In this document: piece by piece, positions 1,504-63,734 of the stretch | Position numbering within the stretch: the first letter of the stretch is position 1 | How the letters are laid out: each line of letters begins with the position of its first letter | NCBI GenBank assembly: GCA_030248295.1 | Contig: JASANH010000702.1 | Span: 62,001-126,000, forward strand | Reading direction: 5' to 3' | Source of the DNA: Mesodorylaimus sp. YZB2_4 | Taxonomy: Eukaryota > Nematoda > Enoplea > Dorylaimida > Dorylaimidae | Length of the DNA stretch: 64,000 nt | The notes under the pieces: model-generated | Databases searched by the model: none | Told to the model about the DNA's origin: nothing | Seen by the model: the letters and a program-made list of their open reading frames with translations, nothing else | Program-made: the position numbers and the translations under genes

Positions 1504-1507
1504 GTAG
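1504..1507. repeat. Target-site duplication GTAG (left)
   Basis: GTAG immediately precedes the left LTR and recurs immediately after the right LTR at 14134-14137. Four-base duplications are usual for Ty3/gypsy insertion, so the two LTRs bound one insertion. Confidence 0.8.
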
Positions 1508-1900
1508 TGAAATCCTTGGCTCGCCCTAGGACGATCTAGGGCTGACCAGAGGATGGCTCAAGCCAGGAACAGAACCACGCAGTCCACGGACACCTCGTAA
1601 TATAGTTTATTCGTCCCCACACCACAAGGGCCGTGTAGACTCACAATTCGGGGAGCAGCCGCACGTGTCGGCCGTCAAAGGGGTTCTGACGGATCTGAGC
1701 CCAGAGTGCTCACAGAGCAAGTCTGGACCAGGAACTCAAGACTAGTTCTCAACCGATGTCTGCAATCAGAGCAGTCACTCGACCTCGACCTCGCTCTCGG
1801 TCTCGTGCTGGCCCTGACATAGGAGAGGCGGACTGGTTCCCTGAACCAGTGCACACATAGGCCAGAGGGCATAACACATGCCTAGTCCATGCCTATTACA
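1508..1900 (-). repeat. 3' LTR of the PWWP gypsy element
   Basis: It begins TG and ends CA on both strands and matches 13742-14133 almost throughout. Most differences cluster at about 1682-1745. An AATAAA polyadenylation signal lies on the minus strand at 1606-1611, inside the LTR. Confidence 0.95.
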
Positions 1901-1914
1901 TTCCTCCCCTCCTT
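1901..1914 (-). other. Polypurine tract
   Basis: On the minus strand AAGGAGGGGAGGAA directly abuts the TGTAAT start of the 3' LTR. This is the expected position for the plus-strand DNA primer in reverse transcription. Confidence 0.85.
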
Positions 1915-2703
1915 AAAAGAAGCGTGACCCCACGCTTCCCGTGAAAAGTAGGGCACCTTCGATTAAGGGATCCTGGAGAAAAAGTCCAGGTCGTCAGGCT
2001 AAAAAAACAGGGATCAGAGACTGAACCAGTGGGAGAAAGGTCCAGCAAAAAGGCGAGACCAGGGCGTAACCGGAGTCAGTGAAGACCAAAATGGATAGTA
2101 CACTGCTGTCGTCCAGCGAGTCCCCTAGGTGACACATACATAAGCGACTCCCCGGATGGCCCTAGGGTCTAACGAGGCGCACACCAAAGTACGTGGGTTC
2201 AGCAATGCTCAACTCCACACGTCATCCCAGCCCCAATCACAACATCACAGAACATCACACGTTCTTCATGGCTGGGTGACGGCTGCTGAAAGGGAAGAGG
2301 AGCACCACCCAGGCACACTGCCAGAGAATCATCCAGCAATGGGAGACCCCGTGACCTACGCACTACCTGAAACCCAAGAAGGGGTCAAGGAACGTGCTCC
2401 GCCACAACCAGGGATCGCCCAGTATGTGCGCAAACTCGGTGTGTACAGAGACCAGAAACAGTCCAGACTCTGTAACCCAGTCCAGATGACGGAAGACTGG
2501 GCGGGCAAATAATGCACCAAACCTCAGCAAAACCCAAAAATAATCCCCACAAAATCTACCACACAGCTGAGGCCGGGCCGGAAATAGTCTAGCCCATAAA
2601 GAAAACAGGACCAAAAAGAGTTCAGTCCGTAAAATACCCACGCAAACACACACACAGGGTTAGTCCGGTTAGACGAAACCTTGCTAGCCCAAACCATGAC
2701 GAA
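1915..2703 (-). other. 3' untranslated part of the gypsy element
   Basis: This lies between the stop of the third ORF and the polypurine tract. A 118-codon plus-strand frame at 2156-2512 runs antisense to the element, has no recognisable motif and is not called as a gene. Confidence 0.5.
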
Positions 2704-3166
2704 TCATTCCACCATCAGCACCGGGCAAGGAATCGCCTCGCCGGCCACCGGAGTAGCGACCAACGCATCGCCATTCGCCGACATGCAAACGTCTGAAACC
2801 AAGGATTCGTTGTTGCAGAATGGGAATCCACCACCCGCCAGATCCAGAAAATACATGGCCAATTGGGCGGGCGACAGCTGCTGCACACGGGCAATCCACA
2901 TGGCCCGCGCCACCAGAGAACGATGACTGCAAAGGCTACTTACCCAATCGTCAAACGAAGCGAACAACTGACGCGACGGCCAATCTATAATCGTCCACGG
3001 CTGGTCCAAGGGGACGCCAGCGATGTCGAAAGCCGGTCGGAATGCCATGGGATAATGCGGCAAAGAGAAAAACGGTTCACGAACCACGCACCGTTCGAAC
3101 CCACTGGCACCATGAATCACGACCGCTGCTGGACAGTCGAACTGCAGCTCGTAGACGTAGCGCGAC
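2704..3166 (-). pseudogene. Third ORF of gypsy element, 3' half (function unknown)
   Basis: This is about 153 codons downstream of pol, where some gypsy elements carry env. Removing the LINE and one copy of its target duplication would restore the frame with the fragment at 4009-4403, giving a protein of about 280 residues. This half is rich in aromatic and hydrophobic residues (SRYVYEL, SLPHYPM, DQPWTIIDWPS) but has no clear transmembrane helix, signal peptide or furin site, so I do not call it an envelope protein. The first codons of the open frame are Met codons from the LINE's (ATG)n tail and are not native. Confidence 0.6.
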
Positions 3167-3172
3167 ATATCC
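3167..3172. repeat. LINE target-site duplication ATATCC (left)
   Basis: ATATCC sits directly before the CAT/ATC tail at 3173 and again at 4009-4014, directly after the 5'-truncated end of the LINE. Confidence 0.7.
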
Positions 3173-4008
3173 ATCATCATCATCATCATCATGTTTTATT
3201 TGTAGCCAAACGCATAAGCGCACTCAGGGGCTGCGAAACAAGAGGATAAGTACAATAGATGAAAAAAAAGAGAACAAATGATCACAGTCAAGAAAGAAGA
3301 AAGTCTTAAAAAAAAATCACTAAAAAGTAACCTTTGAAACAGAAAAACGAAATCGAGGTAAGGAATCCAAGGCAACATTGGCGGCCAGCTCATTCCATAA
3401 AACGATGCACGAAAATATAAAACATTGTTTGTATGTCTCAAAAAAATGCCTGGGAACTACTAAATGGTGCGGTGCCACATTCCTCTCGCTAGTGCGAAAA
3501 GCAGTCTTATGTACTAACGGATGATCAGCATAAAAATTAAAATCGTGAATGTTGTTGTAAAACTTGTAAAACTGATAAAGTTTCAAACGCTTCCTACGAT
3601 TGAAAAGAGAGACCCAGCCAGCCTTGTCTAGGCCTGCATCATACGAAATGGTAAAATCGTTCAAAAAAAGACGTAAGGCATAAAATTGAGCGCGGTCCAG
3701 TTCATGCACATCCTGTTTCAAAACTGGGTCCCAACAAACACATCCATATTCTAAAACTGATCTCACACAAGCATCGTAAACTGTGCCAAGAACTGAAGGG
3801 CCCACATGACGACCAAGTTTTCGACGCAAGGCACCCAACATGGAAGTAGCTTTTCGCACAACGCTGCTAACATGTTCGCTAAATTTCATGTCGTTAGTGA
3901 AAAGGACTCCCAAATACTTAACCTCGTTGTATACAGTTAGAGGCTGACCGCGCAAAAAAAGTTTTGGTTGACGAGTGAGCTTACCATGACCATAGCGAAA
4001 AAAAAGCG
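3173..4008 (-). mobile_element. 5'-truncated CR1/L2-like LINE nested in the gypsy element
   Basis: This 836 bp insertion is bounded by ATATCC duplications and ends, on the minus strand, in an (ATG)n microsatellite tail at about 3173-3194, as non-LTR elements of the CR1/L2/jockey group often do. Its open frame, stop near 3320, encodes only the region after the RT catalytic core. Visible motifs are KYLGVLF, then a Leu/Ala-rich helix, ALRRKLG, VLEYGCVCWDP and NRRKRLKLYQFYKFYNN, with HHLVVPR near the end. The reading frame is intact to the stop, so the insertion is probably younger than the other LINE stubs here at 20660 and 44790, which share the same C-terminal motifs. It splits the third ORF. 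Confidence 0.85.
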
Positions 4009-4403
4009 ATATCCTGGCGATATCCTGGCCAAAACACAACGGAACCATGAACGAGTTCCTCCATTGTGGAGGCGCGACCATCGAAAACCCGAAGGGAACA
4101 CCGTTCAGGTCCGCAAACCAAACCAGAGGCCACACAGCAGTCTAGTTCAGCGACTTCGCATGAACCATCTCGGATTTTGGCATCCAAGTCACGCAACCCA
4201 TTCGCAGTATCGATGGGCAGACCTAGATACAGACCGGGAACTGCCATATCCGAGGCACCGGCCACTGAAGCCATGACGGGTTCAGTGCCAGGTCCAGACG
4301 TATCCATAATCGATGAAGATGCGTCGGCCACCGCAGCCTGTGCTGGAACAGTGCCAGACGCCGCCGTCGAGATCGAAGAGCCATGAATGGATGAATGATC
4401 CAT
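4009..4403 (-). pseudogene. Third ORF of gypsy element, 5' half
   Basis: The likely start is the ATG at 4401-4403 (MDHSSIHGSS). The region is rich in Ala, Ser and Thr for about 60 residues, then more ordered (LYLGLPID, LRDLDAKIRDGSCEV). The frame runs into the LINE at 4008. Next to the junction the sequence GATATCCTGGC is tandemly repeated (4008-4028), an extra small duplication at the insertion site. No family is recognised. The position after pol suggests expression from a spliced or internally initiated mRNA, which is inference. Confidence 0.55.
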
Positions 4404-4876
4404 TTCGAATCGCCAATATCCAAAGAATAATACCCGAATAGTTCCTGGAATAGACTGTACCTGAGAACCAATACCAAATACCCGTACCAATAATACTGAG
4501 CACGATTGAGCAATTCCGGAAGGAATGCACCGAGATTCGTCGCAAAAGAACAAAATTAATCACCGGGTCTAAAGCTCTAATTCTTAAAGCTCGAGACACC
4601 CGGGTCGAACCAACGAAAATAGAATTAGTACCCAAAACAATTAGTAAGGCACTAATTGGGGACCAGAACAAAAAACCAAAGAAAACCAACACCAAAACCG
4701 AAAAACCCACTAAACAAATCGAAAATCCGATCGAAAATGATTTGTCGCGTCACGCAAGCCCACCTTAGGAAAATATTCCAGGTGGCGCACATGACGAGGC
4801 CATCTTGACGCAGACCTCCTGAGCAACGTGTTCCACGACGAAGATGCTTAGGCGCGGGAAGTTCAAATTCCGAAAA
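4404..4876 (-). other. Spacer between integrase and third ORF
   Basis: This interval is A-rich on the plus strand (U-rich on the element RNA) with no conserved coding motif. A U-rich stretch just before the third ORF could hold a splice acceptor, but I cannot define one. Confidence 0.4.
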
Positions 4877-7705
4877 TCACATATCGCAGTCCAGATGCAC
4901 ACGGGGCGCATAGGGGCAGCGATATACTGAAATGAATCGGACCGGTGCTGTACCATCGTCAAGATTGGCATCTGGCAAGGTGCCAGCCAATCGCAAATCT
5001 TCTATTGCACAAATCGCTTGGTGAATCGCTTTCTTCAAACGGCCCACCTTACTCTTGTGCTTCTGCGGAATAAAGTTCTTTAATTTTAGCTTCGCCTGGA
5101 AGAACTGCTGATGTTTGGCAAAATCACGTATCGCAGTTTCCCGCAGGAACGCATACTTCCCATCGTCGTTTAGGAACTGCACCCGATATACCTGCTCCAA
5201 GTTGACCTTGGACACAGAGGACGCATGTGCCTTCTTGATCGGTGCATCGTCGAGGTCCCCAGGGCACGAATTCGGGCCCAGACCTGTAATACGGCCTGGC
5301 CACCACGGAAAGCCCATGACCTTTGCCCAAACGTACTGACCAATGTGGAAAGATTGCGTAGCAGGCGGGACATTCGTCGTCGAACTTGTATTCGAGGTAG
5401 GCTTGTCCTGTAATGGAATAGGCTGATCAGCATTATCTGCACTACCCTCCACCTGCTCTGAAAGACCCGTGTCCTTTGTCAGTATGCGCTCTGCGTCAGC
5501 GGACACATCTTCCACTGCTGCAGCTCGTTCCAGGCGTTCCGTCGTCTTGACTAAATGCTGTGGGTGCCATCGTTTAACCGGCTTCGATGGGTCCTGCAAA
5601 TTGCGGATCAGCACGCCCGACTCACCCAACAGCTTCACCACTTCGTACGGACCTAACCAGTGAAAACCCAATTTCCTAGAAAGGCCAGGTTTGAAGTGAT
5701 AATTCGGCTTACGAACCCAATCTCTAACTTTCAACGACAGAGGACGTGCCGTTTTGTCATACTGTAATTTCTGACGAAACTGATTGAGTTCGATGTTCTG
5801 ACGCACCTTCGCATCGATACTTGCCATGCGGATCCGCAAGTGATCCACATACTCAGTGCCTTGTACCGATTCAGTACGAGGTTGAGCGAGCAAAGTATCC
5901 AATGCCATGGGCGGGTCCCTTCCATGCGACATGAGATACGGGGAAACACCCGTCGTCGTGTGCGGAGTATGCCGATAATGCATCATAATCAGCTGCAATT
6001 GGTTATCCCAATCTTTTTGATTAGGATGGACGTAGCATGCCATGGAGAACCCGATAAGTTTATTCAGGTTTTCAACGTTACCATTGCATTGCGGGTGATA
6101 GGGCGTTGTCGAAACTTTCTTCACTCCCAGTTCCTTGCAAAGTCGTAAAACGAGCTTAGACAAGAAATTAGAGCCACGATCGCTGAGAAGCACCCGAGGA
6201 CATCCGTGTCGAGTGATCCACCCATCGACGAGCAGGCGAGCAATGCGTGCTGCCTTTTGATCGGGCACTGCGTATGCTTCAGCCCACTTGGTGAATATGC
6301 ACATAATCACAACCACGAACCTGTTGCCATGATCCGAGGTTGGAAATGGACCTTGTACATCGATGGCAATCGTGTCGAAGGGCGCTGTGCGTTTAATGAT
6401 CTCCAAGGGCGGTCGTCCGTATCGATGAGGTGCCTTGAAACGAGCACACGTATTGCACTCGGCACACCAGGCCCTGAGATCGCGTCGCATCGTGGACCAA
6501 AAATACTTGATCCTCAGCGCAGAGAACAGTCGATCGAAACCAGGTTGGTTCGCGTCCTTATGGGCAGCATCAAAAATGAATCGACGCAGCTCTGACGGGA
6601 CCACCACTCTGTCGTGAAAATACGTTCCTTCGACCAACCTGCTCTTGTGATGCCATCTGTGCATAAGAATGCCCTCGTCGTCCAGCAGATAGCTCTTCGC
6701 CAAATTCGCGATTTTGGGAGGCTGATTATAATCACCCTGCAAAAATGCAATAATACGTCCCATTCCATCATCATCCCGCTGCATCTTCTCCAGAAGTTCC
6801 CGGGACGGTGCATCAGGAAATGCATCGGCTGCTATTTTAGCCGTGTCGATCCCCAACTCGTCCGATTCCAATTGCGTTGCTGGATCCAATTCGTCCCGCA
6901 ACTCCAAATCGCATTCAGAGTCAGAGTCGTCAGAGAGATTGACATCTGGTTGCACTTCCAATTCCAAGGCGGCATCTGTATCCGGAGACCCTACTGTAGT
7001 CCAGACAGATGCTCCAACCACATGCTTCGCTTCAGCAATCGCGACGGCACATTCATTGAACATGCCCTCGTATATGTCTTCGTTACACTCCTCAGAGATT
7101 GAGTCTAAGGGACCAGACGATGCCAGAGCAACAAAGTGGTCTAGCCAATTGACTAAGAGAGGCACTGGTAGGACCTCACGCACCAGAGCCAACGGGATAT
7201 CGTCGATAATTGCGTTGGGAGCCTCCACCATGGACTCATCCTTGCTTCCCATATCCGTTGCTGCCGTGACGCAGATCATGGGTAAATCGGGCTCTGTGAC
7301 AGGAGCTTGCTCACCGTCACCATCGGTCGCTTCGCCACCATCGGAGATACCAGAATCCGACTCGATCGTGACTGCTTGCGGCAATAAGGCGATCAATGCG
7401 GAAGGGCCACACATCGAACACCGTTTCGTGGGTGACAATGCCGAGAACAGCATAGCATTAGCTGCTGGCATGCGCGATAGAAAATCGGCGGCGCCATTGT
7501 CACATCCTTTCGCGTGTGTAATGCTGAAAGTATAATCTTGCAATTGCATAAGCCACTTACCGCGACGTCCTTCCAAATCCTTCTGCTTGTACCAGTACAA
7601 GAGAGGCTTGTGATCCGTGTACACTTCGAAGGACCGTCCGTATAAATAATGTCGATATTGTTTGATCGCCCAATGAATAGCAAGGCACTCCCGATCGATC
7701 GTCGG
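4877..7705 (-). CDS. pol: Pol, 3' part: RNase H end, integrase, GPY/F and C-terminal PWWP domain
   Basis: The frame continues the RT ORF after a TAA at 7706-7708. Counting residues from the codon at 7622-7624, the order is: RNase H tail (YTDHKPLLYW), an acidic low-complexity linker (about 70-300), an HHCC zinc finger starting at H355 with WCAECNTC, and the integrase core with D422, D482 and E518. The last two are separated by exactly 35 residues, the D-D-35-E signature. A GPY-like motif (WLGPYEVV) follows. At about 758-845 there is a PWWP domain, VWAKVMGFPWWPGRI with PWWP at 773-776, followed by YRVQFLNDDGKYAFL and a helical tail. PWWP domains bind nucleosomal H3K36 methylation and DNA. At this place chromoviruses carry a chromodomain, so the likely role is choosing integration sites. 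The integrase frame itself is intact. Confidence 0.95.
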   Translation of the reverse strand, partial: PTIDRECLAIHWAIKQYRHYLYGRSFEVYTDHKPLLYWYKQKDLEGRRGKWLMQLQDYTFSITHAKGCDNGAADFLSRMPAANAMLFSALSPTKRCSMCGPSALIALLPQAVTIESDSGISDGGEATDGDGEQAPVTEPDLPMICVTAATDMGSKDESMVEAPNAIIDDIPLALVREVLPVPLLVNWLDHFVALASSGPLDSISEECNEDIYEGMFNECAVAIAEAKHVVGASVWTTVGSPDTDAALELEVQPDVNLSDDSDSECDLELRDELDPATQLESDELGIDTAKIAADAFPDAPSRELLEKMQRDDDGMGRIIAFLQGDYNQPPKIANLAKSYLLDDEGILMHRWHHKSRLVEGTYFHDRVVVPSELRRFIFDAAHKDANQPGFDRLFSALRIKYFWSTMRRDLRAWCAECNTCARFKAPHRYGRPPLEIIKRTAPFDTIAIDVQGPFPTSDHGNRFVVVIMCIFTKWAEAYAVPDQKAARIARLLVDGWITRHGCPRVLLSDRGSNFLSKLVLRLCKELGVKKVSTTPYHPQCNGNVENLNKLIGFSMACYVHPNQKDWDNQLQLIMMHYRHTPHTTTGVSPYLMSHGRDPPMALDTLLAQPRTESVQGTEYVDHLRIRMASIDAKVRQNIELNQFRQKLQYDKTARPLSLKVRDWVRKPNYHFKPGLSRKLGFHWLGPYEVVKLLGESGVLIRNLQDPSKPVKRWHPQHLVKTTERLERAAAVEDVSADAERILTKDTGLSEQVEGSADNADQPIPLQDKPTSNTSSTTNVPPATQSFHIGQYVWAKVMGFPWWPGRITGLGPNSCPGDLDDAPIKKAHASSVSKVNLEQVYRVQFLNDDGKYAFLRETAIRDFAKHQQFFQAKLKLKNFIPQKHKSKVGRLKKAIHQAICAIEDLRLAGTLPDANLDDGTAPVRFISVYRCPYAPRVHLDCDM
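5098..5350 (-). other. PWWP domain at the integrase C-terminus
   Basis: The motif GQYVWAKVMGFPWWPGRI matches the first two strands of known PWWP domains closely. The later YRVQFLNDDGKYAF segment matches the third and fourth strands, and a basic helical region (KAKLKLKNF, KHKSKVGRLKKA) follows as in many PWWP proteins. Aromatic residues F772, W775 and the Y/F pair of KYAF are candidates for the methyl-lysine cage. These assignments come from comparison with the family, not from a structure. Confidence 0.9.
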
Positions 7706-9446
7706 TTACCTCTGCTCGGTTGGTGACGGAGTTCGCGAAATGAACCCAATAGCCCATGCGTGCTTCGGCTTCTTTGGATCATACTGCTCCAGGACAGCAC
7801 CTATGGCAAAACTACTTGCGTCAGTGCTGAGTCTGAAAGGCAGTGAGAAGTCAACAAATCGCATGACTGGATACGTTACCAGTGCTTCTCGCAGATCTTC
7901 GAATTCTTTCTGATGTGTATCCGACCATTCCCATCGCACGTTTTTCTTCAAGAGTTCTCGCAGAGCCCTGGTTCTACGAGCAAACCCCTCGACGAACGAT
8001 CGATAGTAACTGGCCAACCCCATAAATTTGTGGAGTTGGTCCGTGTTCGTCGGAATTGGGAAATTTCGGATTTTGTCCCGTTTGTCATCTGTGATCGAAA
8101 CACCCTCGGCACTAATGCAATGGCCTGAGTACTCGACTCGGTCCATGCCAATAGCGCACTTGGATGGTTCAAGCATCAGATGTGCCTCTCGGAGACGTCC
8201 AAATACAGTGTTCAGATGCTCGACATGTTCGTCTAGTGTCTTGCTGAATACGATGATATCGTCCAGATAGCATTGGGTGTAAATCCACAGCAATCCAGAC
8301 GATGTCATCTCCATGCACCTTTGGAACTCCGCAGGTGCGTTGCAGAGTCCAAATGGCATGTTGACGTAATCCCAGAAGCCGAAGGGGCAAACGAATGCCA
8401 TTTTTTCAGCCGTTTCTGGGTCCAAGGGTATCTGACTATACCCCGACGTCATGTCGAACACCGAAAAATACTTCGACCCACGCAGTGCATCCAACATTTC
8501 ATGAATGTTGGGCAGTGTGTGGGCGTCCTCCTTCGTTACCTTATTGATGGCACGGAAGTCGACGCACATCCTCCAATCGCCCGTTTTTTTGCGCACCAAC
8601 ACAGTCGGCGATGCCCATGGAGAACGTGATGGTCGAATCCACCCCAGGCGCAATAACTTCGCGACTTCCTCCTGGATGATTGGCTTCTGACTTTCGGCTA
8701 GTCGTCGAGGACGGGCCATGATTGGTTTCGCGTCCCTGGTACTGATATGATGTTTAGCCAAATGGGTGCCACTAATTTCTTCCTTTTTCAGGGCGAAGAC
8801 GTCCGAATTAGATGCGACTACCACACGGACAAGCTGTTCGTCTCGCTCTGAAAGATTGCCATTTCCAAATTTCAGCTTTTCCAATAGCTGTTTCTGACGT
8901 TTCGGATCATGCCAGTCGATCAGAACTCGGTGAAGCCGATTGGGCTCCAGTGGCCTATCCTTTTTTCCCTCCAGGTGTAGCCACAATTCTTCATGCCTCA
9001 CGAATTCGACTTCCGGCCTGATTGGCGTGTATGTACAGGGCGCCAATTCTGCGGGTTGATCCGGAATAACCTCTTCGACCCTCCAGAATGGAGGCGCTTT
9101 CTTGTCGGAAGGAAATGGACTCGGTATTTCCCATTGTAGACCAGACTTCTCTGGATCCGTCCTCCGATTGTAACGGAATGTCACTCGGAACGGTTCCAAC
9201 TCAGAGAGAAATCCCACATTCATATTTCTCGGCAGAATCTGAGCCACTTCTGCCAGATCCACTAAAGGGACCAGAAATTGCCCGGTCCTTTTATCAGGTC
9301 GTACCACAGTCCTGGGCATTATGACTTGTGGTTCCACAGGCATCGGGTCGAAGAGCACATCGCGTCCTCGATATCGATGAGGCGCGACGGCTGTGGTGAT
9401 CACATGCCAACGAGCTCCAACCTGAGTGGCGTTAGCCATTCGAGCG
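7706..9446 (-). CDS. pol: Pol, 5' part: reverse transcriptase and start of RNase H
   Basis: The ORF opens with MANATQVG at about 9439 and encodes a gypsy RT. Motifs in order are WIRPSRSPWASPTVLVRKK, MCVDFRAINK, SVFDMTSGYSQIPL, MPFGLCNAPAEFQR and the catalytic YLDD at residues 391-394. The connection and the first RNase H strand (RLSTDASSFAIGAVLEQ) follow. The frame stops at TAA (7706-7708) inside RNase H, where family members usually have Tyr (PTEQR then Y). The next ORF continues in the same frame, so this is a single nonsense change, not a true terminus. Upstream it is in frame with the end of protease, separated by one TGA at about 9447-9449. Confidence 0.93.
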
Positions 9447-9998
9447 GATGCTCAGGAGAATTCGTGAGGCATACGATGCACTGGTACGTCGACACCGGCC
9501 AACGCACCAGCCGTGTACCGAACTTGTTCCTGGTCGGTATCGTATTCGATGCAGACCCGTGTTAAAATCTCCTCCCAGTAGCACGGAATATTTTCCATAC
9601 TCTGAAACGTAGAATGGGACATTAGGTGCAATTTTACCACTGATTTTGATATCCAAACGAGCAATGCCAATAATTGGCATTGGTTTACCATCCCCGTCAA
9701 CACAATGATCAATGTCTGGGGGCTCTAGTTTGGACTGATCGTATCGTTTTCGTTCTATTGCCTTCATCGTTTCCTCTGAAATCAGGGTAATACTTGCACA
9801 ACTGTCCACATACGCACGAGTCTTGTGACGACCAATCGAGACGTCAATCTGCGGGAGAGACAGACGTCCCGTTACCATCGTTCGCCCATCGCTCGCCATG
9901 CATACACCATACGGCCCGTAGCCTGCTTCTGCAAAAGATAGTTTTACAGTAGGTACGTTCTGGGGGGGAAGGGAATAAATAGTGGATAAGCGGCCCAC
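9447..9998 (-). pseudogene. Aspartic protease of gypsy element, frame broken
   Basis: The frame directly follows gag, separated only by TGA at 9999-10001. The active-site strand reads YVDSCASITLIS, so DSC stands where most retroelement proteases have D(T/S)G. Either this is a lineage variant or the Gly-to-Cys change inactivates the enzyme. The second conserved region is VLLGGDF. Just after it (about 9560) the coding signal moves to the other frame, which leads through HRMPHEFS and a TGA into the RT ORF. Protease would cut the Gag-Pol polyprotein. Confidence 0.8.
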
Positions 9999-11264
9999 TC
10001 AGTGGTGTACCGCCTTCCTCACGTTTTTTTGATCGGTTGTTCGTTCGACTGGTTCTTCCTCCTTCTCCTCCACTAGCTGTGACTTCTTCCAATGGTACGG
10101 ACTTTCATCTCGAATTCTGGCGCTACACTGCATCAAGGAGTGTGACCTATCCCCACACTGACCACACGGAGAGGAGCAGTCTTGGGCGTAATGACCACTG
10201 CCCTTGCAGTTAAAGCAAATTACCTTACCGCTCTCTCTCCTACTGTCAGACGAATACTTATCGCTGTCCTGCGCCCGTTTGTTCCAGCGAGGTGCTGGGG
10301 AATTAGGTCGTGAATCGCTGAACGATGTAGATCGGTCACGACGATTGGACTGCCGATGGTCACTTTGGCGCGTCTTCTGCTGCCTCGAATACCATTGCTT
10401 TTGGTTGTCGTCGCTCGACTGGTACCTCGTGCTGTACCGTCCACGCCACTGGCTGCGTGAGCGCATCTGGCCACCCAAATCGAATTTCGGTCGTGACGTG
10501 GTACGATTGAAACGAGCGTACCCTTGATCGCCATATGGATTGGAGCGATTCTGATTCGGCCGATTTTTGTTGCCGAATCGCGACTTCGTAAATTGAACAG
10601 CAGGCATCTCATCGCTGCCTCCATCGTTCGTCGTACCTGACCCATCGTCAGCATCGAAGAATTCGCCCTCCGAACTTGATGCATCTCCGTACCTCGCACT
10701 CGCCAACATCGCCTTAGGCGTCGTTCCCCTGTCAACAAGATCAGATTTCATAAAGCTCTCTAACTCACAAGCTAGATGAACTCTTCGTTCCAAACCTGGC
10801 GGAGACTGTTCCACCAAGATTTGCTGCATCAATCGTTTCTTCAGAGGTTGCGTCAGGCCCACTGTGAACTTTAACGAGAGTTTTTCCTCCAATCGTTCCG
10901 TGTTAGATTCTGGATACAATTGGGTACCCAGATCACGCAACCGTTCCATGTATTTGATGACCGGTTCGCTCGCCTTCTGCACGCAGCTTTGGAACCTCAT
11001 TCGGCGCTGCTCTGCAGATAATTGACGATCGTAAATATCGGCCATCGCTTTCCTTGCTTGTTCGTACGTAGATTTCTGTTCGGTCGACAACAATGCCCAT
11101 GTTGTCGCCGCTGCTTCTTTCATGCAACTACCAAAGTATTTTAGTTTAGTAGTTGCGTCAGCCGCTGCTGGTGCACTTTTGAACTGGCGTAACCAAACTC
11201 GAAATTCGCCATCCATGCCGCCCCGAAAAGGGTCGAGACGTTGCATGGGAGGAAGTGGTAACAT
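9999..11264 (-). CDS. gag: Gag, capsid and nucleocapsid part
   Basis: The frame has 421 codons from the ATG at 11262-11264, though that Met is probably internal to a longer ancestral Gag. Residues 1-170 form a retrotransposon Gag capsid-like helical region (FRVWLRQFKSAP, TWALLSTEQKSTYEQARKA, SEPVIKYMERLRDLGTQLYP). Then comes an Arg/Ser/Gly-rich basic stretch, and two CX2CX4HX4C zinc knuckles at 350-363 (CFNCKGSGHYAQDC) and 367-380 (CGQCGDRSHSLMQC). It would assemble the particle and package element RNA. It ends in a TGA that is in frame with protease. A related fragment lies at 36690-37384. Confidence 0.92.
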   Translation of the reverse strand: MLPLPPMQRLDPFRGGMDGEFRVWLRQFKSAPAAADATTKLKYFGSCMKEAAATTWALLSTEQKSTYEQARKAMADIYDRQLSAEQRRMRFQSCVQKASEPVIKYMERLRDLGTQLYPESNTERLEEKLSLKFTVGLTQPLKKRLMQQILVEQSPPGLERRVHLACELESFMKSDLVDRGTTPKAMLASARYGDASSSEGEFFDADDGSGTTNDGGSDEMPAVQFTKSRFGNKNRPNQNRSNPYGDQGYARFNRTTSRPKFDLGGQMRSRSQWRGRYSTRYQSSDDNQKQWYSRQQKTRQSDHRQSNRRDRSTSFSDSRPNSPAPRWNKRAQDSDKYSSDSRRESGKVICFNCKGSGHYAQDCSSPCGQCGDRSHSLMQCSARIRDESPYHWKKSQLVEEKEEEPVERTTDQKNVRKAVHH

Positions 11265-13404
11265 GGGTTTCCGCGGAGCCCACTGACGAGGTCTTCAGGG
11301 CAGATTTCGTCCGCCTCCTCGTCCTCCACGTCCATCGTCGCCATTATCCGATTCACTGGATCCGTTTCCATCATCGTCATCCGGTGGGTCGCCTCGTTGA
11401 CCTCCGCAGTGATACTGTCTGCCGCTCGTTCGCTGGGGAGGATACAGGTGGTGTACTGCCGGTACCTGTCCCACGTGATCGTTGACTGGCGCTGATTGAC
11501 GGCCAGGTGCATTCGCTGCCAAGTTGACCCAATGCGGGTTCCCTTGGGCGTCGTACAGCACTGTTGGTTGCTGTTGCTGTTGTGCCGACGCCTCTGAGCA
11601 CCTGACGGTACCCAGGCCTGTCGACGCACGGGGGGGCCACATTCACGGTCGTCGTTATCGTAGCAGCCTGTTGCCTCGATGTACCAATCGTATTCGCATC
11701 ACGCAAGTTTGGCGGAATCGCGAATGGAAACTTGATTGGCGGATAATCTGGAAAACCAGTTTTAGGGTTCATCTGAACCTTACCTTCAGATACCAACCGC
11801 AAGCGATACTGTTCCATCGCGTCATGGGTACGCTGATAATGCTTATGGAGCTCTTCCTGGTACCCTTCTGGATCGTCTCGTCGTTTCCGCAGCATCGCAT
11901 CACGTTCTTGTTGCGTGAAGAAATCGAGGAACCAGTGGTCCCACTTTGTCAGGGCGGGATACACTGGCCATGGCTGCTGTTGCTGTTCTTTCAATCCTTG
12001 TGGCTTCATCAGATCCGCGAATCGTTGTTCCATTCGCTGGATCGATGCATTGATATCTGCCTCCTCCAAATCTTTATTCGTCCGCGTGAACGGCGACAGT
12101 GGCCATTCTTGGTCATCGGCCACTTCATTACCGCCTTGACCATTGCCACTTGCCTGTCCTTCTTTATTCGATTCCAGTGACTTCCGGATATTGGCGGCTT
12201 CATGCACCATTTCTGATAGTTCTTCTTGCAGGTTGCCCAGTGGGTTGAGACCAGACACCTGCCAATTCGTCGCGGTTAGGGTGCCATTGGCGCCCAACCT
12301 TGTCGAAGTCGAAGCTTGGTCGCTTGCTGGTGAGACATGCAAGCCCACCTGCAGTCGTTGGTCGTCACCAGGACCAGTAGATTGACCAGTCCTGGCCGGT
12401 GTAGTGTAGGTCAACTGGTATGCGCGTTCCGTCCACCATTGCTGGATCAGATCCCAAATGTACGCTCCAGTGACGAAAGCCAGCTGCAATGGCAAATACA
12501 CGTGACAACGAGCCAAATCAAAATTACCTGACTGGGTGAAATATTCGTTCGCTGCCTCCTGGAGCCAGTCCTTCGTTGGGACTAGCAGTTCTTCGGCTTC
12601 GATCGTCTTGGCTGGTGCTTGACCATGGGTCAGCCAGTAATAGGCGATCGCGTACTGGTACAATTCACGCCGCAGGATATCGAGCAATTCGTATTTGTTC
12701 GACTTTGTCCAGCTAGCCCGTGGCCAAACCCTGGACCAGCCCAGACACTCGATCCAATGTCGGATGGTGGCGATATCCTTGCACTGTAAGATGTCTTTTC
12801 CCGTTAGTGCATCAGTTCCTACGGGAGGGGCGTTCTGACTGTCTGTTATCATACCCAATGAGGAGGTACCAGCCGCTTGTTCTCTCGCGATCGTCGCCAC
12901 TGACTGTGTGCGCTCGACAACCATAGTCGGCACCGTGTTCGGTCTGGTGTCTTCTGTCTGGTCCGCTTCCCCGGGCAATGATCGAGTACTTTTGGGGCGA
13001 GGACCCATTGCTAAATCCCGAACCCAAGACGGTGTACTTACCACAGTCGAAACAACCGCTGTCGTTATCGTCGGGACGATCGTTGTTGTGGCTCTGGCAG
13101 CCTCCGTCGAAATGGCTGGCGGGCGCTGATCTGAGGCACCCGCTCTGTTGATCGATGCCATCGTCTCACTCGTTCCACCCAGGCCGAGACGTTGTAAATG
13201 GTCTGTCTTGGTCGTCCGTTGTTCCTTCGCTCGTTGTTGTGCCATTGCTGCTTGCGTAGGAAATTTCGAATGACCAGACAGAGAAGCAAGCTCGTCCATC
13301 ACTCGGTCTGCACCTCGGGTAGAAGGATTGTCTACCCTTTGGCGTGTATTATAATAATGCTTCGGTGGATGACCCCCACCTTGATTCTTCTTCGTTGGAT
13401 CCAT
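11265..13404 (-). CDS. Gag N-terminal extension, with frame breaks
   Basis: The ATG at 13402-13404 (MDPTKKNQGG) starts a long open frame to 11377. Its first 200 residues are rich in Thr, Ala and Pro. A more ordered central part follows (IRHWIECLGWSRVWPRASW, LLDILRRELYQYAIAYYW), then a Gln-rich segment. Near 11628-11634 a run of seven G coincides with a change of coding frame: the neighbouring minus frame 11642-11295 takes over with poly-Q, YDAQGNPHWV and an acidic GDPPDDDD stretch. A second frame change near 11290 leads into the capsid ORF. I read the whole 13404-9999 span as one former gag of about 1,100 residues. I recognise no family for the N-terminal half. Confidence 0.7.
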
Positions 13405-13722
13405 GCCGATCGAATTTACGCGTCCGTTCAATAGACACGTCGAAATAAAACAGTAATACGCGTGCGAGGGCTTACCTCAGCCTAACACGTGATACTTGGC
13501 AACTCGCCAAGACAAACGATACGCGATGCACTCGACGAAAATAATACTCGACCGAGCCCAAAACCAGCTCGTGGCGATGTCCAAAAAGAGGCTTAGACTT
13601 TGCACATGCACGTCGAACGTCGACGGAATACAATCACCAAAAATAAATATCGCGCTGCTCGGCGCTACCCAAACCGACACGCTTGACCACTCCTGAATTG
13701 CGTTGGTAAGCTAACCCAAACG

Positions 13723-13740
13723 TGGCTGTTCGCGACGCCA
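13723..13740 (-). other. Primer binding site of the PWWP gypsy element
   Basis: On the minus strand TGGCGTCGCGAACAGCCA starts one base after the 5' LTR. It begins with TGG, complementary to a tRNA CCA end. I cannot assign the tRNA. Confidence 0.7.
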
Positions 13741-13741
13741 G

Positions 13742-14133
13742 TGAAATCCTCGGCTCGCCCTAGGACGATCTAGGGCTGACCAGAGGATGGCTCAAGCCAG
13801 GAACAGAACCACGCAGTCCACGGACACCTCGTAATATAGTTTATTCGTCCCCACACCACAAGGGCCGTGTAGACTCACAATTCGGGGAGCAGCCGCACGT
13901 GTCGGCCGTCAAAGGGGTTCTGACAGGCCTGAGCCCGAAGTGCTCACAGAGCAGTTCAGATCAGGTGATCCAGACTAGTTCTCAACCGATGTCTGCAATC
14001 AGACCAGTCACTCGACCTCGACCTCGCTCTCGGTCTCGTGCTGGCCCTGACATAGGAGAGGCGGACCAGTTCCCTGAACCAGTGCACACATAGGCCAGAG
14101 GGCATAACACATGCCTAGTCCATGCCTATTACA
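13742..14133 (-). repeat. 5' LTR of the PWWP gypsy element
   Basis: This 392 bp copy matches 1508-1900, has the same TG...CA ends, and is followed by the GTAG target duplication at 14134-14137. It would hold promoter and polyadenylation signals. The AATAAA on the minus strand is shared with the other copy. Confidence 0.95.
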
Positions 14134-14137
14134 GTAG

Positions 14138-37429: not shown

Positions 37430-38827
37430 CGGGGGGATTACGTTCGCTTCTTCACAGGCGGTGGCGATGTTGGTGGTGTGCTGAAATCAGGAGACGACGA
37501 CCTACCTAATCTCAGCTCAGAGTGACCCGCCTTACATTTCTCAATCTGCTGCGGTGGTACTGGTTGATGTGATGCTGGTGGTGCGACCTTACAATCAGGC
37601 CGAGGATGCGAACTGTTTGTCTGGGGGGTTAGGTGTCATTAGCGAAATGTCATCGTCCTCTCCATCTTCCATACCTGGTGGAATTTCCCAAGGCGCATAA
37701 CACGATTTCAGTCTGTTATTGTGCACCAATTTCCTGTTTGCCGTTGGCTGCGACCATGAGCGAATGACACTATCTACCGGACTTGGTTTCGCTACGACAA
37801 TATAAGGTCCGTCCCAGTTGGCCTGTAATTTCGCCCCAGTTCCTTTGGGTACCATTTGCAGCCATACCAGACTATTCACTGAGAACTCATGGGTCTCACG
37901 ATTTCTGTCATAATGATATTTTTGCCTTTCTTGAGCTTCCCTTAAATTGTTACGGATAATTGCTTTCATGGCGCTCAGCCCTGCAGCAACATCATCGGCG
38001 TAATCCTTCGTGCTTTTGCGTCCTAAAGGTTGCACTGATAATTCGCCTGGGATTTTGGGCTCCCTACCGAACAAGATCTTATAAGGCGCGAATTTGACCG
38101 TTGATTGAACAGACGATCTATATGGAAATAGAATAAACGGCAAGGCGCTATCCCAATCAGTGCCGAATTGCTTGATGTAAATTCCCAACATCGTACCAAG
38201 GACTTTGTTGAATCTTTCAGTCAGCCCGTTACACATGGGATGATAAGCCGTTGTATTTTTCTTCTGAATGTCGCATAATTTGCAGACTTCGGCCATAACC
38301 TGGTTCAGGAACTCAGTGCCTCGATCTGAGATCAGCTCATCGCAACTTCCATAATGGCACAGAAGTTCCCTCACAAATGCATTTGCGACTGTCTTAGCCG
38401 ATTTATTTGGGAGGGGCACTGCCTCGACCCATCGAGAGAAATAGTCAGTAAAGACGATGATGTATTCATTTCCTCGCCGTGTTGCAGGCAACGGACCAAA
38501 TAATTAAACCCCAACACGTTCCCACGGCCTAGCCGTGGCTGGCATCGACTGAAGCGGCGCGACATTTTTCCGATGAGGGTTTTTGAATCTAGCGCACCAT
38601 GCGCACTGCTTTACGTATCTTCCTACATCTTGAAAATAACCATCCCAATAATATCGCTGCGCGAGCTTATCGAACGTTTTTCCAACCCCGAAGTGCGCTG
38701 CGAATGCGTCACTGTGGCACTGGCGTAGCATTTTCCCTTTCATATTCTGAAGTATTACGATTTGAAAAACTGGCTCAGATTGCTTGCTCCAACGCATTGG
38801 ATGTACCAGCAGTCCATCTTCAAACAT
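37430..38827 (-). pseudogene. Gypsy 2 integrase
   Basis: The HHCC zinc finger region (HSDAFAAHFGVGK, CAWCARFKNPH) lies in the frame 38827-38507. A TAA at 38504-38506 falls exactly where the first catalytic Asp is expected (ERVGV*LFGPLP; the family has VD-L-GP). The core continues with LISDRGTEF and LTERFNK, the second Asp and Glu separated by 35 residues, and a GPY motif (WDGPYIVV). The C-terminal tail shifts frame near 37610 into a Pro/Ser-rich stretch (PPTSPPPVKK). There is no PWWP or chromodomain. Confidence 0.9.
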
Positions 38828-39366
38828 ATATTGAGGTCTTCGAAAACTCGATTCTTCCCTTGATAGTATGATCCATGCGTTGAGCTATAGCCATCTCTGC
38901 ATGCTTAGCATGTTCATCCCAAACATTTAGGTCGTAATATGATACCTCCCGTTTCGCCGCAATCACTTGATTGCTGTCGAAAGTGCTGTCAAACAAAAGG
39001 GCTTGCAAGTCAGGTTTTGGGATGCTGGCGCGGGATAGGGCGTCCACATTTGCATGCTTTATTCCAGGTCTGTACCGAACCTCAAAATGCATGCCTGTCA
39101 GGTTGGAGATCCATCTTGCGAAACGGCCGTCATGTTGCTTAAAAATGGCTACTAGGGGAAGATGGTCTGTGATTACAGTGAATTTTTGACCATAGATGTA
39201 TGGGCGAAAATGCTTGACTGCCCAATACAAGGCCAGACCTTCTAATTCTGTAGCTGATTATTTCTTTTCGCTGGAGAGCAAGGACCAGCTAGCGTAGGCG
39301 ACGGGGTGTTCCCGTCCTTCTTCGTCGATTTGCGATAAAATAGCGTCCAATCCTTTTCCACTAGCA
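38820..39366 (-). pseudogene. Gypsy 2 RNase H
   Basis: After a frame change at about 39400 and a TAA near 39255, the frame reads LYWAVKHFRPYIYGQKFTVITDHLPL and VRYRPGIKHANVDALSR, typical RNase H and its end motif. It then links to the integrase zinc finger with a stop at 38820. Confidence 0.85.
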
Positions 39367-40329
39367 TCAGTGTATATAATAAAAGGCTTCTTCAAAACCC
39401 GGGTAAGCCAAAATAGGTGCCGATGTCAAGCGCTCTTTTAGCTCTTCGAAAGCTGTGATGGCGTCAGAGGTCCATACGAACTTTACTGCTTCCTTCGTTA
39501 ATTCAACCAGGGGCCGAGCAATCTTTAAAAAATTAAAAATGAAGCGTCGATAAAATGTGCACATGCCGAGGAATCTGCGCACTGCTTTCCGATCTGTACG
39601 GGCTGGCATGTCTTGAACTGCCACTACTTCACTATTGTCAGTTTTCAAACCTTCGGCAGATACGACATACCCCAAAAATGGCACTTCAGCTCTCATTAAA
39701 TGGCATTTCGACAATTTAAGACGGAGGTTTACTTCATGCAATCGTTTGAACACTGCATCCAGCCTTTGCTTCATTTCCTCAAACGTAGTCCCCCACACTA
39801 AAATATCATCGAGGTAGACAAGGCAATCCTTGAATGTCATGCCCGCCAATGTGGCGTTCATTAGACGCATGAAGACAGCTGGCGCATTAGTTAGGCCAAA
39901 AGGGAGGACCTTGAACTCATAGTGACCTCCTCCCGGTATTCGGAAAGCTGTCTTCTCCCTGTCTTCTTCCCTTAATTTTATTTGCCAATATCCCGAGATC
40001 AAATCCAAGCTACAGAAAAACTTGGTTCCAGCAAGAGAGTCTAGTAAATCATCCATACGGGGAAGAGGGTACTCATCACGTACTGTGATCTCGTTCAGTT
40101 TGCGGTAATCAACTGCGAAACGGTATTCCCCGTTTTTCTTGCGCACTATACAAGGCGGACTCGCCCAAGCGCTGTGTGAATCTTCCGCTTGACCGCCCAG
40201 TTTCATTTCTGCCACCATTCTTTCTGCTAGTTCCCGCTGCACGAAGGGCATTCGGCGAGGCGGCATATTAACTGGTGGGTGATTTCCAGTATTGATTACA
40301 TTCTTGATTTCAATATCTGCAGGTTTCAA
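39367..40329 (-). CDS. pol: Gypsy 2 reverse transcriptase
   Basis: An uninterrupted RT frame carries SAWASPPCIVRKKNGEYRF, VDYRKLNEIT, FCSLDLISGYWQIKL, VLPFGLTNAPAVFMRLM and CLVYLDDILV, with catalytic YLDD. The connection LRLKLSKCHL and FLGYVVSAEGL follows. The frame is lost at FEEAFYY near 39370 by a shift. Confidence 0.93.
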   Translation of the reverse strand: MKPADIEIKNVINTGNHPPVNMPPRRMPFVQRELAERMVAEMKLGGQAEDSHSAWASPPCIVRKKNGEYRFAVDYRKLNEITVRDEYPLPRMDDLLDSLAGTKFFCSLDLISGYWQIKLREEDREKTAFRIPGGGHYEFKVLPFGLTNAPAVFMRLMNATLAGMTFKDCLVYLDDILVWGTTFEEMKQRLDAVFKRLHEVNLRLKLSKCHLMRAEVPFLGYVVSAEGLKTDNSEVVAVQDMPARTDRKAVRRFLGMCTFYRRFIFNFLKIARPLVELTKEAVKFVWTSDAITAFEELKERLTSAPILAYPGFEEAFYYIH

Positions 40330-40341
40330 GTCAAGCGTGCT

Positions 40342-41934
40342 TTACGCGAATAATTTCTTGTTCGCCCACGGTAAAAGGAACTTCCGAAAATCCTGTTTTT
40401 GGGGCGAAGTAACCAATGGATTGTTAAATTTCAACTGCTTGATTTGCTGGACAGGATCTTCGTGTCCGTCAGTCTGTACTTCGAACTTTTGGTCAACGGG
40501 TATCACTTCAGCGACCTCCTCTGTATAGCCGATCTTAGTGCCCGCCGATAGGCGCACCGGGTTTTGTAACGTATCCACTAGTTTTACTGGAAATCGTCCC
40601 TTCTTGATGTCAGTCACACAATTCTCCACTAAAACAAGTTCATTAGGGCTAGCAGGCTTGTAGCATCCGCTAAAACAAGCTGTCTTATTTATGTCCTCTC
40701 CTGTGACTTGAGCCCATGCGAATTTGCTGTTTCGTGGTAATATGGTCACATCCTCAGCTAAGCAAACTGTGGCTTCTTTTGAGTACTGAGGGTGTCTGTC
40801 CGCGTACACCTCCCTGCATAGTTGCACAGTCATATTATTAAGATGTGCGCGTTTGGTTAAATCAAATTTTATTTGACCTAATTTAGTCATAAGATCTCTA
40901 CCCAACACAACAGGGACGGGTAGGCCTTCTAGGACGAGAAATCGATGGAAAACGTGTTGCTGCAAGACTTCTATCTGACATGAGAATTGGTTCTGGGGTA
41001 CAAACGACTGGCCGTTTATTGCGGTCATAGATGATCGTTTACATTCCTGCATCTCGAGGGAAGTGTCTTTTTGACTGAGCGAGTCTGCAAAGGTCTCACT
41101 GACAAAACTTTCCCCTGCACCAGTGTCCATGAGTGCTCTAGCCCACACATTTGCTGCCACAAACTTTGTGAGTGGGACTGCTGCAGGTACCTGATCGTCT
41201 TCGAGCTCGGCACACGCGCACTCCCATTTTTGATCAACCTGTAAGCTTGCATTTCTCAACCGAATTTCATTAGCAAAATTTTCCCAAAACACATTAGTCG
41301 CCACAAAAACAAGGCCTACCACAACGGGGCCTAGCGTACTGAACGCAAACAGAGACAGAAAACGAAATATATCGATTGCATCATCGATCGAATTCACTAT
41401 CGCCTGGGGGTTTCTCCCTTTCCATCTCTCGCTCGTGTTTGTCGTTATATGCGAGTATCGTCTGGAGGACCACCGTGTGGTGTCAGCGGGCGGTCGTCGT
41501 CCTCGCTTTGTACTGTCCCCGAACCATCGGTGGCAATTTTGGCAAACTGCCTTTGAGGCAGCGACGGCTGAACAGATAAGAGACCAAGTAACGGCCAGGT
41601 ATATTTGACGAAGGCCAGATAATTTTCTTACCATTTGGGGAACTTTGAATGCAGCTAAGTCATGGTTGCTCGTGCTCACATTGGTTGTACTAGTGGACGG
41701 CGTTTCCGTGACTGTACTCGAATTCAAATTTTCGACCACGATCGGACTGGCCGCGAGTGTAGTACTGGCCGTAGTAACTGACTGTAGTGTCGGGAACGAC
41801 CGCTCCAAGGAAGGCGTGGTCGGCACAACGGGTGCTGGTGGGTTCTCGACTACCTGTACGGATGTGATATTTCCATTTTGAATGGCGTTGGTTGTCTGCG
41901 ACGGTGATAGTGTGGCACTGGTTACAGCCAACAT
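40342..41934 (-). CDS. Gypsy 2 protease and N-terminal Pol linker
   Basis: A 530-codon frame contains the aspartic protease motif ALMDTGAGESFVSETF with the canonical DTGA. VVLGRDLMTKLGQIKFDL further down is the second protease landmark. The N-terminal 200 residues are Thr/Ser-rich, then hydrophobic around FLSLFAFSTLGPVVVGLVFVA, an unusual membrane-like segment before the protease. A related protease fragment lies at 46571-47353. Confidence 0.85.
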   Translation of the reverse strand: MLAVTSATLSPSQTTNAIQNGNITSVQVVENPPAPVVPTTPSLERSFPTLQSVTTASTTLAASPIVVENLNSSTVTETPSTSTTNVSTSNHDLAAFKVPQMVRKLSGLRQIYLAVTWSLICSAVAASKAVCQNCHRWFGDSTKRGRRPPADTTRWSSRRYSHITTNTSERWKGRNPQAIVNSIDDAIDIFRFLSLFAFSTLGPVVVGLVFVATNVFWENFANEIRLRNASLQVDQKWECACAELEDDQVPAAVPLTKFVAANVWARALMDTGAGESFVSETFADSLSQKDTSLEMQECKRSSMTAINGQSFVPQNQFSCQIEVLQQHVFHRFLVLEGLPVPVVLGRDLMTKLGQIKFDLTKRAHLNNMTVQLCREVYADRHPQYSKEATVCLAEDVTILPRNSKFAWAQVTGEDINKTACFSGCYKPASPNELVLVENCVTDIKKGRFPVKLVDTLQNPVRLSAGTKIGYTEEVAEVIPVDQKFEVQTDGHEDPVQQIKQLKFNNPLVTSPQKQDFRKFLLPWANKKLFA

Positions 41935-41967
41935 TTGCGCATTCGTATGCTGTAAGATTGGATTTTT

Positions 41968-43170
41968 TTAATGCTCTACGTAAGGCTCATACTTATCATA
42001 TGCATACTCTCCAGGGCCTGTATCAAATAAGCTACACCCGTAATCTGCGTAAGGTTCGAAAAACAGTTCTCCCAAATTTACATCGTGATCGTCTTTGTTG
42101 ACTGCTGCGTTATGCACATCGCGTGAACGCATTCCTTGATTCTGATTAGATCTAGTCTGTCTGCCATGGGAGTAGCTAAATCCATTTCTTCCATGAGACT
42201 GGTTTTTCTGCCTATCTGCACCTATCTCATAAGGATTCTGATTGGCTCTAGTACTTGCCTGATTGCTATCCGTTAACAGGAATAGGTTTCTTCCACTCAA
42301 TCGGTTCTTAGCGACCGGATACAAGAAGCAATTCGCCAACACGTGGTTGTGTCGACCACAGAAGCTGCAGCCTTGTCCGCCATTGGCTGCCAGTCGGTTG
42401 CTGGCTCGACTCATCAACCGGCATTGCTTGAAAGGGTGAGGGAACCCATCGTACTTGCACAACTGTTGTTGCTGAGGAGCCGGAGTGTTCTGCTGCGCAT
42501 TTTGAACTTGACTATTGGTCATTCTTCCGCCGCGTTGAAAATTATTCTGTCCTCGAAATCCGCCTCTGCCGCGATTATTATTGTGGCCCATAACTGCTCT
42601 GATGCCGTGTACGATGTCAGACGGCGATGGGTTATTGACAATAGCTGAAGAGGATAACGAAAACATTCTTTGATTAATTTCTGCGGTACTGACAGCAGTT
42701 AAGACATCATCTAAGGTTCTAGCGATGTTCATATAAGCGGCTTTCCACAACTTATAATTTGGATGCGACTTATCGCACACTTTCAATCCTTCGATAAATC
42801 GTTCCTTTAAAACTAATTGCTGAGCTTCCTGAGGTTCACCCAGATAAGCTTGCCTTACTAACGTTTTCAGATCTCTTAAATAGTCAGCTACGGTTTCCTT
42901 TTCTTGTTTCCTCCTATTTGAGAACTCCTGTCGCCAAATTGCTAACTGATGAGGTTGCACTAAGCTTGCTAACAACAAAGCTTTGGCGCGAGCATGGGTA
43001 TCAATCTGGTTTGCTTGTGCCCCACGGACAGTATTTTGTGCCCTATCTTTTACAGACTTTTTTAATTCTCGCAAACGAATGGCATCATTGATTTCTTCGA
43101 CTAGGTCAGATAAATACTCGAATTGTTCAAACCACTTGGTAGCATCATGACCTAAGTCTCCTATTCATGG
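41968..43170 (-). CDS. gag: Gypsy 2 Gag
   Basis: The listed Met near 43074 is preceded in frame by more Gag-like sequence (FEYLSDLVEEINDAIR), so the start is further upstream, and a possible frame break prevents placing it. The order is a capsid region (ALLLASLVQPHQLAIWRQEF, VADYLRDLKTLVRQAYLGE), a Gly/Arg/Asn-rich region, an atypical Cys/His cluster (CKYDGFPHPFKQC) and a zinc knuckle CSFCGRHNHVLANC. It ends in an acidic Tyr-rich tail. Confidence 0.88.
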
Positions 43171-63670: not shown

Positions 63671-63734
63671 CTTCACACCGCACCGCCGCCTTCCAGGCGA
63701 ACCAGTCGACGAAGGGCGAGGCGAAGATTGGACG

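Follow-up and report, generated by a model that had tools for sequence, protein, structure and literature searches.

A Ty3/gypsy retrotransposon of a dorylaimid nematode with a PWWP domain at the C-terminal end of its integrase, a probable built-in chromatin tether

A 64 000-nucleotide stretch of the genome of Mesodorylaimus sp. YZB2_4 (referred to below as the window) contains a Ty3/gypsy LTR retrotransposon whose integrase ends in a PWWP domain. By analogy, we consider it probable that this domain serves as a built-in chromatin tether, the PWWP counterpart of the chromodomain of chromoviruses. In chromodomain elements, and for HIV with LEDGF/p75, a chromatin reader attached to the integrase steers insertion, and for this reason the PWWP domain is taken to be a tether in cis. 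Integrases with a C-terminal reader are a known kind; the use of PWWP as the reader is rated as new.

The element is a complete LTR element of 12.6 kb on the minus strand (window positions 1508–14133) with the module order RT–RNase H–H2C2–rve–GPY–PWWP. It is a Ty3/gypsy retrotransposon by its TG..CA LTRs, its short target duplication and the order RT–RNase H–H2C2–rve, all of which were found. The two LTRs are identical at 377 of 395 bases (95%). The features, in window coordinates, are as follows.

1504..1507, no strand, target-site duplication GTAG, left (sequence reading)
1508..1900, minus strand, 3' LTR, TG..CA (LTR comparison and boundary reading)
1901..1914, minus strand, putative polypurine tract before the 3' LTR (sequence reading)
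4877..7705, minus strand, remaining RNase H, integrase and PWWP in a single frame (ORF reading and Pfam)
5012..5341, minus strand, PWWP domain (PF00855, 44.7 bits, E 1.9e-11; same place in the genome-wide search)
5174..5176, minus strand, predicted cage residue F817 (alignment with NSD3 and the published LEDGF cage)
5300..5311, minus strand, predicted cage residues F772 and W775 (alignment with NSD3 and the published LEDGF cage)
5420..5914, minus strand, GPY-type C-terminal module of the integrase (GPY at residue 658; the extent is that of the stretch used as query)
6071..6385, minus strand, integrase catalytic core with D422, D482 and E518, D,D-35-E (PF00665, E 1.1e-10)
6431..6601, minus strand, integrase H2C2 zinc-binding domain (PF17921, E 1.3e-13)
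7706..9439, minus strand, reverse transcriptase and first part of RNase H, ending in an in-frame TAA (RVT_1, E 1.3e-31; RT_RNaseH_2, E 4.2e-17)
9999..11264, minus strand, gag-like ORF with a CCHC zinc knuckle (PF00098, E 3.7e-05)
11377..13431, minus strand, 5' ORF of 684 amino acids with no Pfam match at E 0.01 (Pfam scan)
13728..13740, minus strand, putative primer-binding site (TGG...) adjoining the 5' LTR (sequence reading only; tRNA not matched)
13742..14133, minus strand, 5' LTR, TG..CA (LTR comparison and boundary reading)
14134..14137, no strand, target-site duplication GTAG, right (sequence reading)

The integrase and its PWWP domain share the open frame 4877–7624 (minus strand, open back to 7705), which contains H2C2, rve and PWWP; 35 residues separate D482 and E518 in the catalytic core. 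PF00855 was matched at residues 762–871 with 44.7 bits, above the curated cut-off of 25.6. The profile search thus bears out the initial annotation, which had recognized a PWWP domain in one open frame behind a D-D-35-E core and a GPY motif (E 1.9e-11; GPY at residue 658). Both peptides that it quoted were located, VWAKVMGFPWWPGRI at 5288–5332 and YRVQFLND at 5165–5188; its span of 5098–5350 covers most of the domain but misses the 3' part (Pfam 5012–5341). The position that it gave the reader, where chromoviruses carry their chromodomain, was also correct: the gypsy integrase has a genuine PWWP domain fused to its C-terminus. A chromodomain in place of the PWWP was rejected: PF00385 gave no match at E 0.01 in the window frame, in 10/10 other PWWP segments or in a 2153-residue frame of another copy. 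The window copy is probably disabled, because an in-frame TAA lies within RNase H (7706–7708). Several copies of the same family, found in the integrase-frame search of the genome, have longer open frames with no stop inside the match.

The assembly from which the window comes (145.1 Mb in 1067 contigs) was searched for PWWP domains in all six reading frames; scoring 150 of 173 candidates at a threshold of E <= 1e-3 gave at least 146 matches, spread over many contigs. A search of the same genome with the integrase frame (50 of 993 candidates scored) gave at least 57 matches; among the 57 listed, 30 extend through the PWWP core, to residue 850 of the query or further, whereas 27 stop short of it or are fragmentary. 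The domain, which the initial annotation had seen at one locus, is therefore present in other copies of the family. The sequence context was read at 53 of the 146 PWWP places (the window and 52 further). Gypsy integrase sequence stands directly upstream of the PWWP in 50 of them, as a catalytic-core match in 31 (window included), as an H2C2-to-GPY stretch in 18, a match that in decayed copies need not include the catalytic core, and as the GPY part alone in one (L032). Of the remaining three, one (L022) lies where its contig ends, and two (L056 and L057) are decayed copies with a PWWP similar to those of the elements. None of the 53 places read was recognized as a host PWWP gene. By coordinates, 30 of the 93 unread places lie within 2 kb of a listed integrase-frame match, 27 of them inside one; some of the remaining 63 may be host genes. 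Since there are at least 146 matches in the genome and 50/53 stand behind an integrase, the PWWP is not a chance capture, and chance or single capture was rejected.

Ten further element PWWPs are 21–50% identical to that of the window, and all ten segments scanned exceed the Pfam cut-off for PF00855. At least six deep lineages were distinguished in the integrase tree (the window with L029 and L030; L036; L039 with L040; L038; L012 with L014; L031 with L034). The careful tree comprised 53 rows (11 PWWP and 42 other) hand-picked from 128 usable ones. Three changes of the PWWP label are needed in this tree and two in a quick tree of 109 rows, many of them on long branches. The domain may have been captured once or several times, a single PWWP clade being neither shown nor rejected by the careful tree (AU p 0.135). 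In the same tree the PWWP rows fall outside the branch that holds nine chromodomain rows.

Open frames of 2049–2153 amino acids ending in PWWP were found at L010, L012, L014 and L016. The 2153-residue frame of L012 joins gag zinc knuckles, RT, RNase H, H2C2, rve and PWWP, with a protease match slightly below its cut-off. An LTR-like pair, 88–100% identical, is present at 11 of 20 loci. An exact 4-bp target duplication flanks eight of the ten copies that could be tested at both flanks (it is absent in L015 and L024), against 1.25% in random-position control trials. The LTR pairs and target duplications indicate that the copies are products of ordinary integration, some of them recent.

Substitutions were counted by the Nei–Gojobori method. 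For the PWWP, dN/dS was 0.225/1.80 (L039–L040), 0.072/0.83 (L031–L034) and 0.24/2.3 (L012–L014), giving ratios of about 0.09–0.13; between the window and L029 the silent sites of the PWWP are saturated (pN 0.31 versus pS 0.76). This last pair shares 52% of amino acids in the PWWP and 92% in the catalytic core. The PWWP is under purifying selection, constrained though changing faster than the core. For L039–L040 and L031–L034 the silent sites have diverged far more in the PWWP than in the core, and this excess suggests that subfamilies have exchanged the 3' part.

A profile built from 11 element PWWPs finds solved PWWP structures, namely DNMT3B (1.2e-20), NSD2, MSH6, HDGF and LEDGF. The PWWPs of NSD2/NSD3, DNMT3B, MSH6 and the HDGF family are the same domain and the best solved relatives by sequence, but theirs are host chromatin proteins. 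The element segments (tails included) are basic in 10/11 rows (pI 8.1–10.1), L039 having a pI of 6.2. An AlphaFold2 model of the window segment alone, calculated without an alignment, had a mean pLDDT of 34.1 and was discarded as useless, so that the methyl-lysine cage is deduced from the sequence only.

A literature search returned nothing on the cage residues of NSD3, and the LEDGF cage was therefore used as the reference. According to the available part of PMC3663649, it consists of M15, Y18, W21 and F44; alanine at M15 or Y18 impairs specificity, whereas at W21 or F44 it abolishes binding altogether, possibly by misfolding the domain. At these positions the window shows V, F, W and F in the alignment. 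The aromatic cage, which the initial annotation had proposed to check, is predicted to be mostly intact in the window family, but the W21 position is changed in two of the 11 families. Tryptophan is kept there in 9/11 (L in L031, A in L038) and phenylalanine at the F44 position in 10/11 (L in L030); four of the 11 have F or Y at the Y18 position, and four have M at the M15 position. Conservation at W21 and F44 says little on mark reading, because both residues also hold the LEDGF fold (PMC3663649, in the part available).

The positions of standing copies were compared with a sample of 211 host-exon places, hand-thinned from 286 rows (144 kinase and 142 RRM) mostly by dropping neighbours in the same gene. 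Within 10, 20 and 40 kb of these exons lie 1, 3 and 8 of the 146 PWWP copies, versus rough expectations, calculated with contig sizes interpolated from those seen, of 2.8, 5.2 and 9.7 on the same contigs and 4.0, 7.8 and 14.4 genome-wide. No enrichment of the 146 standing PWWP copies near the 211 sampled exons was therefore found. PWWP copies are over-represented on short contigs: the 50 longest, which make up about 37% of the genome, carry 18% of them. The same holds for PWWP-free gypsy elements, with 16% on those 50 contigs, and the contig spread of the two sets is similar (Mann–Whitney p 0.15). This control consisted of 95 rows hand-taken from 134 after second pieces and rows with lower scores, many of them PWWP elements, had been dropped. 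Because selection and assembly shape the standing copies, the exon distances neither prove nor exclude gene-body targeting.

A second gypsy element in the window (37595–43074) has no PWWP domain. Of its hand-listed relatives, 93/95 have no PWWP match within 3 kb; the other two (C807 and C737) have one about 1.8 kb downstream. Since the second element and its relatives mostly have no PWWP, the domain marks particular gypsy lineages rather than all of them. Chromodomain matches number 70 in the genome. Two repeated ones were examined and are DDE integrases that end in a chromodomain; a single frame encodes the whole of one, whereas the other is broken. Neither is gypsy when compared with the integrases of the elements; from their appearance, we take both to be Polinton-like. 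The other 68 matches may include a chromodomain gypsy. These integrases of the same genome resemble the PWWP element in carrying a C-terminal reader behind a DDE integrase, but differ from it in element class and in the reader, a chromodomain. Exons for an AWS domain, known from H3K36 methyltransferases, were found at two sites of the host genome; they suggest methyltransferases of the SET2/NSD/ASH1 type and are counted in favour of the tether. A cox1 copy on contig C73, where a copy of the window's element is also located, uses TGA as W. Translated with the invertebrate mitochondrial code, it has as nearest named relatives the dorylaimid nematode Xiphinema rivesi (81%) and the longidorids Paralongidorus litoralis and Longidorus vineacola (80%), while records with no species name reach 84%; this fits a dorylaimid host.

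Among the matches listed, 104 proteins are related to the integrase part and 24 of them have a chromodomain. PF00855 was found in 0/104 of these relatives, and the profile of element PWWPs finds none of them below the inclusion threshold. The best 16 listed matches are 36–42% identical to the integrase part, and PF00385 is present in 8/16. A search with the PWWP tail of the protein collection, in which names suggest few dorylaimid genomes, reaches only relatives sharing exact words; it gave 124 candidates, none at E <= 1e-3, and no relative was found in the viral contig collection. Among the open-licence papers listed, no title or abstract opening describes an integrase with PWWP in gypsy or any other LTR element; within this scope, the remark of the initial annotation that it knew of no described gypsy clade with this domain holds. 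In the available part of PMC3978060, PWWP concerns a host protein.

Chromoviruses share with the present element the LTR organization, the RT–RH–integrase order, the GPY module and an integrase whose C-terminus bears a chromatin reader; the reader is a chromodomain there and a PWWP here. Lentiviral integrase is likewise tethered to chromatin by a PWWP (PMC4176367, in part), but there the domain belongs to LEDGF/p75, a host protein bound in trans, whereas here it lies inside the integrase itself. DNMT-bearing retrotransposons and MBD-bearing arthropod elements have captured DNA-methylation domains, according to titles cited in the available part of PMC11244446; compared by these titles, they are alike in having captured a chromatin-related domain and differ in the domain and its expected ligand.

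If the PWWP is a tether, the complex of integrase and cDNA would dock on nucleosomes through it after reverse transcription, its basic surface holding nucleosomal DNA together with the methyl-lysine cage where this is intact, and insertion would follow at the docked nucleosome. For the window family, the mark read would most likely be lysine methylation, for instance H3K36me; where a lineage has a changed cage, its PWWP would probably bind another ligand or hold nucleosomes with no reading of a mark. The PWWP likely binds nucleosomes. We are less sure that it reads H3K36 methylation, above all in lineages that have lost the cage tryptophan. Insertion aimed at H3K36-methylated gene bodies is a candidate reading. 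The initial annotation had proposed an integrase with a built-in tether that may aim at such gene bodies, and as a whole it is partly supported: the fusion is repeated, diverse and under selection, but the standing copies are not enriched near the sampled host exons.

Three other explanations were weighed against the tether. The PWWP might be a general clamp on nucleosomes or DNA that raises the efficiency of integration with no choice of mark or region. We consider this rather unlikely, although it fits the variation of cage residues between lineages (L or A at the W21 position in two), the basic segment in 10/11 rows and the standing copies, which show no closeness to genes. It also agrees with work on LEDGF which concluded that what HIV-1 needs is to be tethered to chromatin, and not any one ligand (PMC2706977, in the part available). 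Retention of the W21 position in 9/11 families and of F44 in 10/11 speaks weakly against a clamp, weakly since both residues also serve the LEDGF fold (PMC3663649, in part). For the tether, what can be seen of PMC4176367 indicates that the PWWP decides where LEDGF/p75 sends HIV-1 and that sites moved when a PHD finger was swapped in as the reader.

A role outside target choice (retention of the complex in the nucleus, a guard against self-insertion, disruption of host silencing or help in folding the integrase tail) appears improbable to us. In principle a chromatin domain within pol might serve any purpose, but in the lineages examined the PWWP follows GPY, in the place held by the chromodomain in chromoviruses and in the two Polinton-like integrases of the same genome. 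An artefact, whether chance resemblance, an assembly chimera or capture at a single locus, has nothing found in its favour and can practically be dismissed in view of the at least 146 matches on many contigs, the several lineages, the target duplications and the selection.

The reading of the PWWP as a tether has a bolder extension, which we put forward as a tentative possibility: a gypsy radiation may have taken over a histone-mark reader, its lineages retuning the cage and exchanging the 3' module. Together they would amount to a natural set of integrases with altered aim, whose target choice evolves through one PWWP domain, starting from H3K36 methylation.

In this mobile element the reader is present in cis, whereas lentiviruses rely on a reader of this type from the host, in trans. 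PWWP joins the chromodomain, DNMT and MBD among the chromatin domains reported in retrotransposons, and the lineages with intact and with altered cages offer a ready comparison for how the target choice of an integrase evolves.

The second gypsy element of the window, which lacks a PWWP domain, was used for an integrase search of the window's own assembly (G000), and 134 matches were obtained across the genome. Many of the weakest were PWWP elements. Two relatives on other contigs were 63% identical to the query and are listed with it.

Window 37595-43074, minus strand: second gypsy element, PWWP absent (RVT_1, rve)
G000 contig C807, 4901-7827: relative with a PWWP match downstream
G000 contig C737, 5126-8045: relative with a PWWP match downstream

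In both relatives the PWWP match lies on the same strand at an equal spacing of ~1.8 kb downstream.

Two further ORFs of the window were considered, together with cox1 and integrase loci elsewhere in the same genome.

Window 3320-4141, minus strand: ORF that on visual inspection looks like the C-terminal region of a non-LTR reverse transcriptase
Window 60521-63676, minus strand: BEL/Pao-like ORF (DUF1759, E 7.6e-22)
L041 1501-2853, plus strand: mitochondrial cox1 copy
L063 37-1161, minus strand: Polinton-like DDE integrase with C-terminal chromodomain
L064 61-667, minus strand: Polinton-like DDE integrase with C-terminal chromodomain

The first ORF, located between the 3' LTR and the PWWP ORF of the PWWP element, gave no match in a Pfam scan and may be either part of that element or a nested fragment. 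The DUF1758 match of the BEL/Pao-like ORF was under its own cut-off. The L041 cox1 copy is one of those found on several large contigs; some of these copies contain stops, and they look like nuclear insertions. L063 and L064 are Polinton-like by our own reading; the chromodomain matches were found repeatedly on many contigs.

At locus L013 (contig C267), close to a contig end, two PWWP elements of the same family lie in opposite orientation, the 5' side of each pointing towards the other, and their PWWPs are separated by ~3 kb.

In two pairs of PWWP elements of the same genome (L039/L040 and L031/L034), the silent distance of the PWWP was several times that of the pair's own catalytic core, a pattern that swapping of the 3' module between subfamilies would produce.
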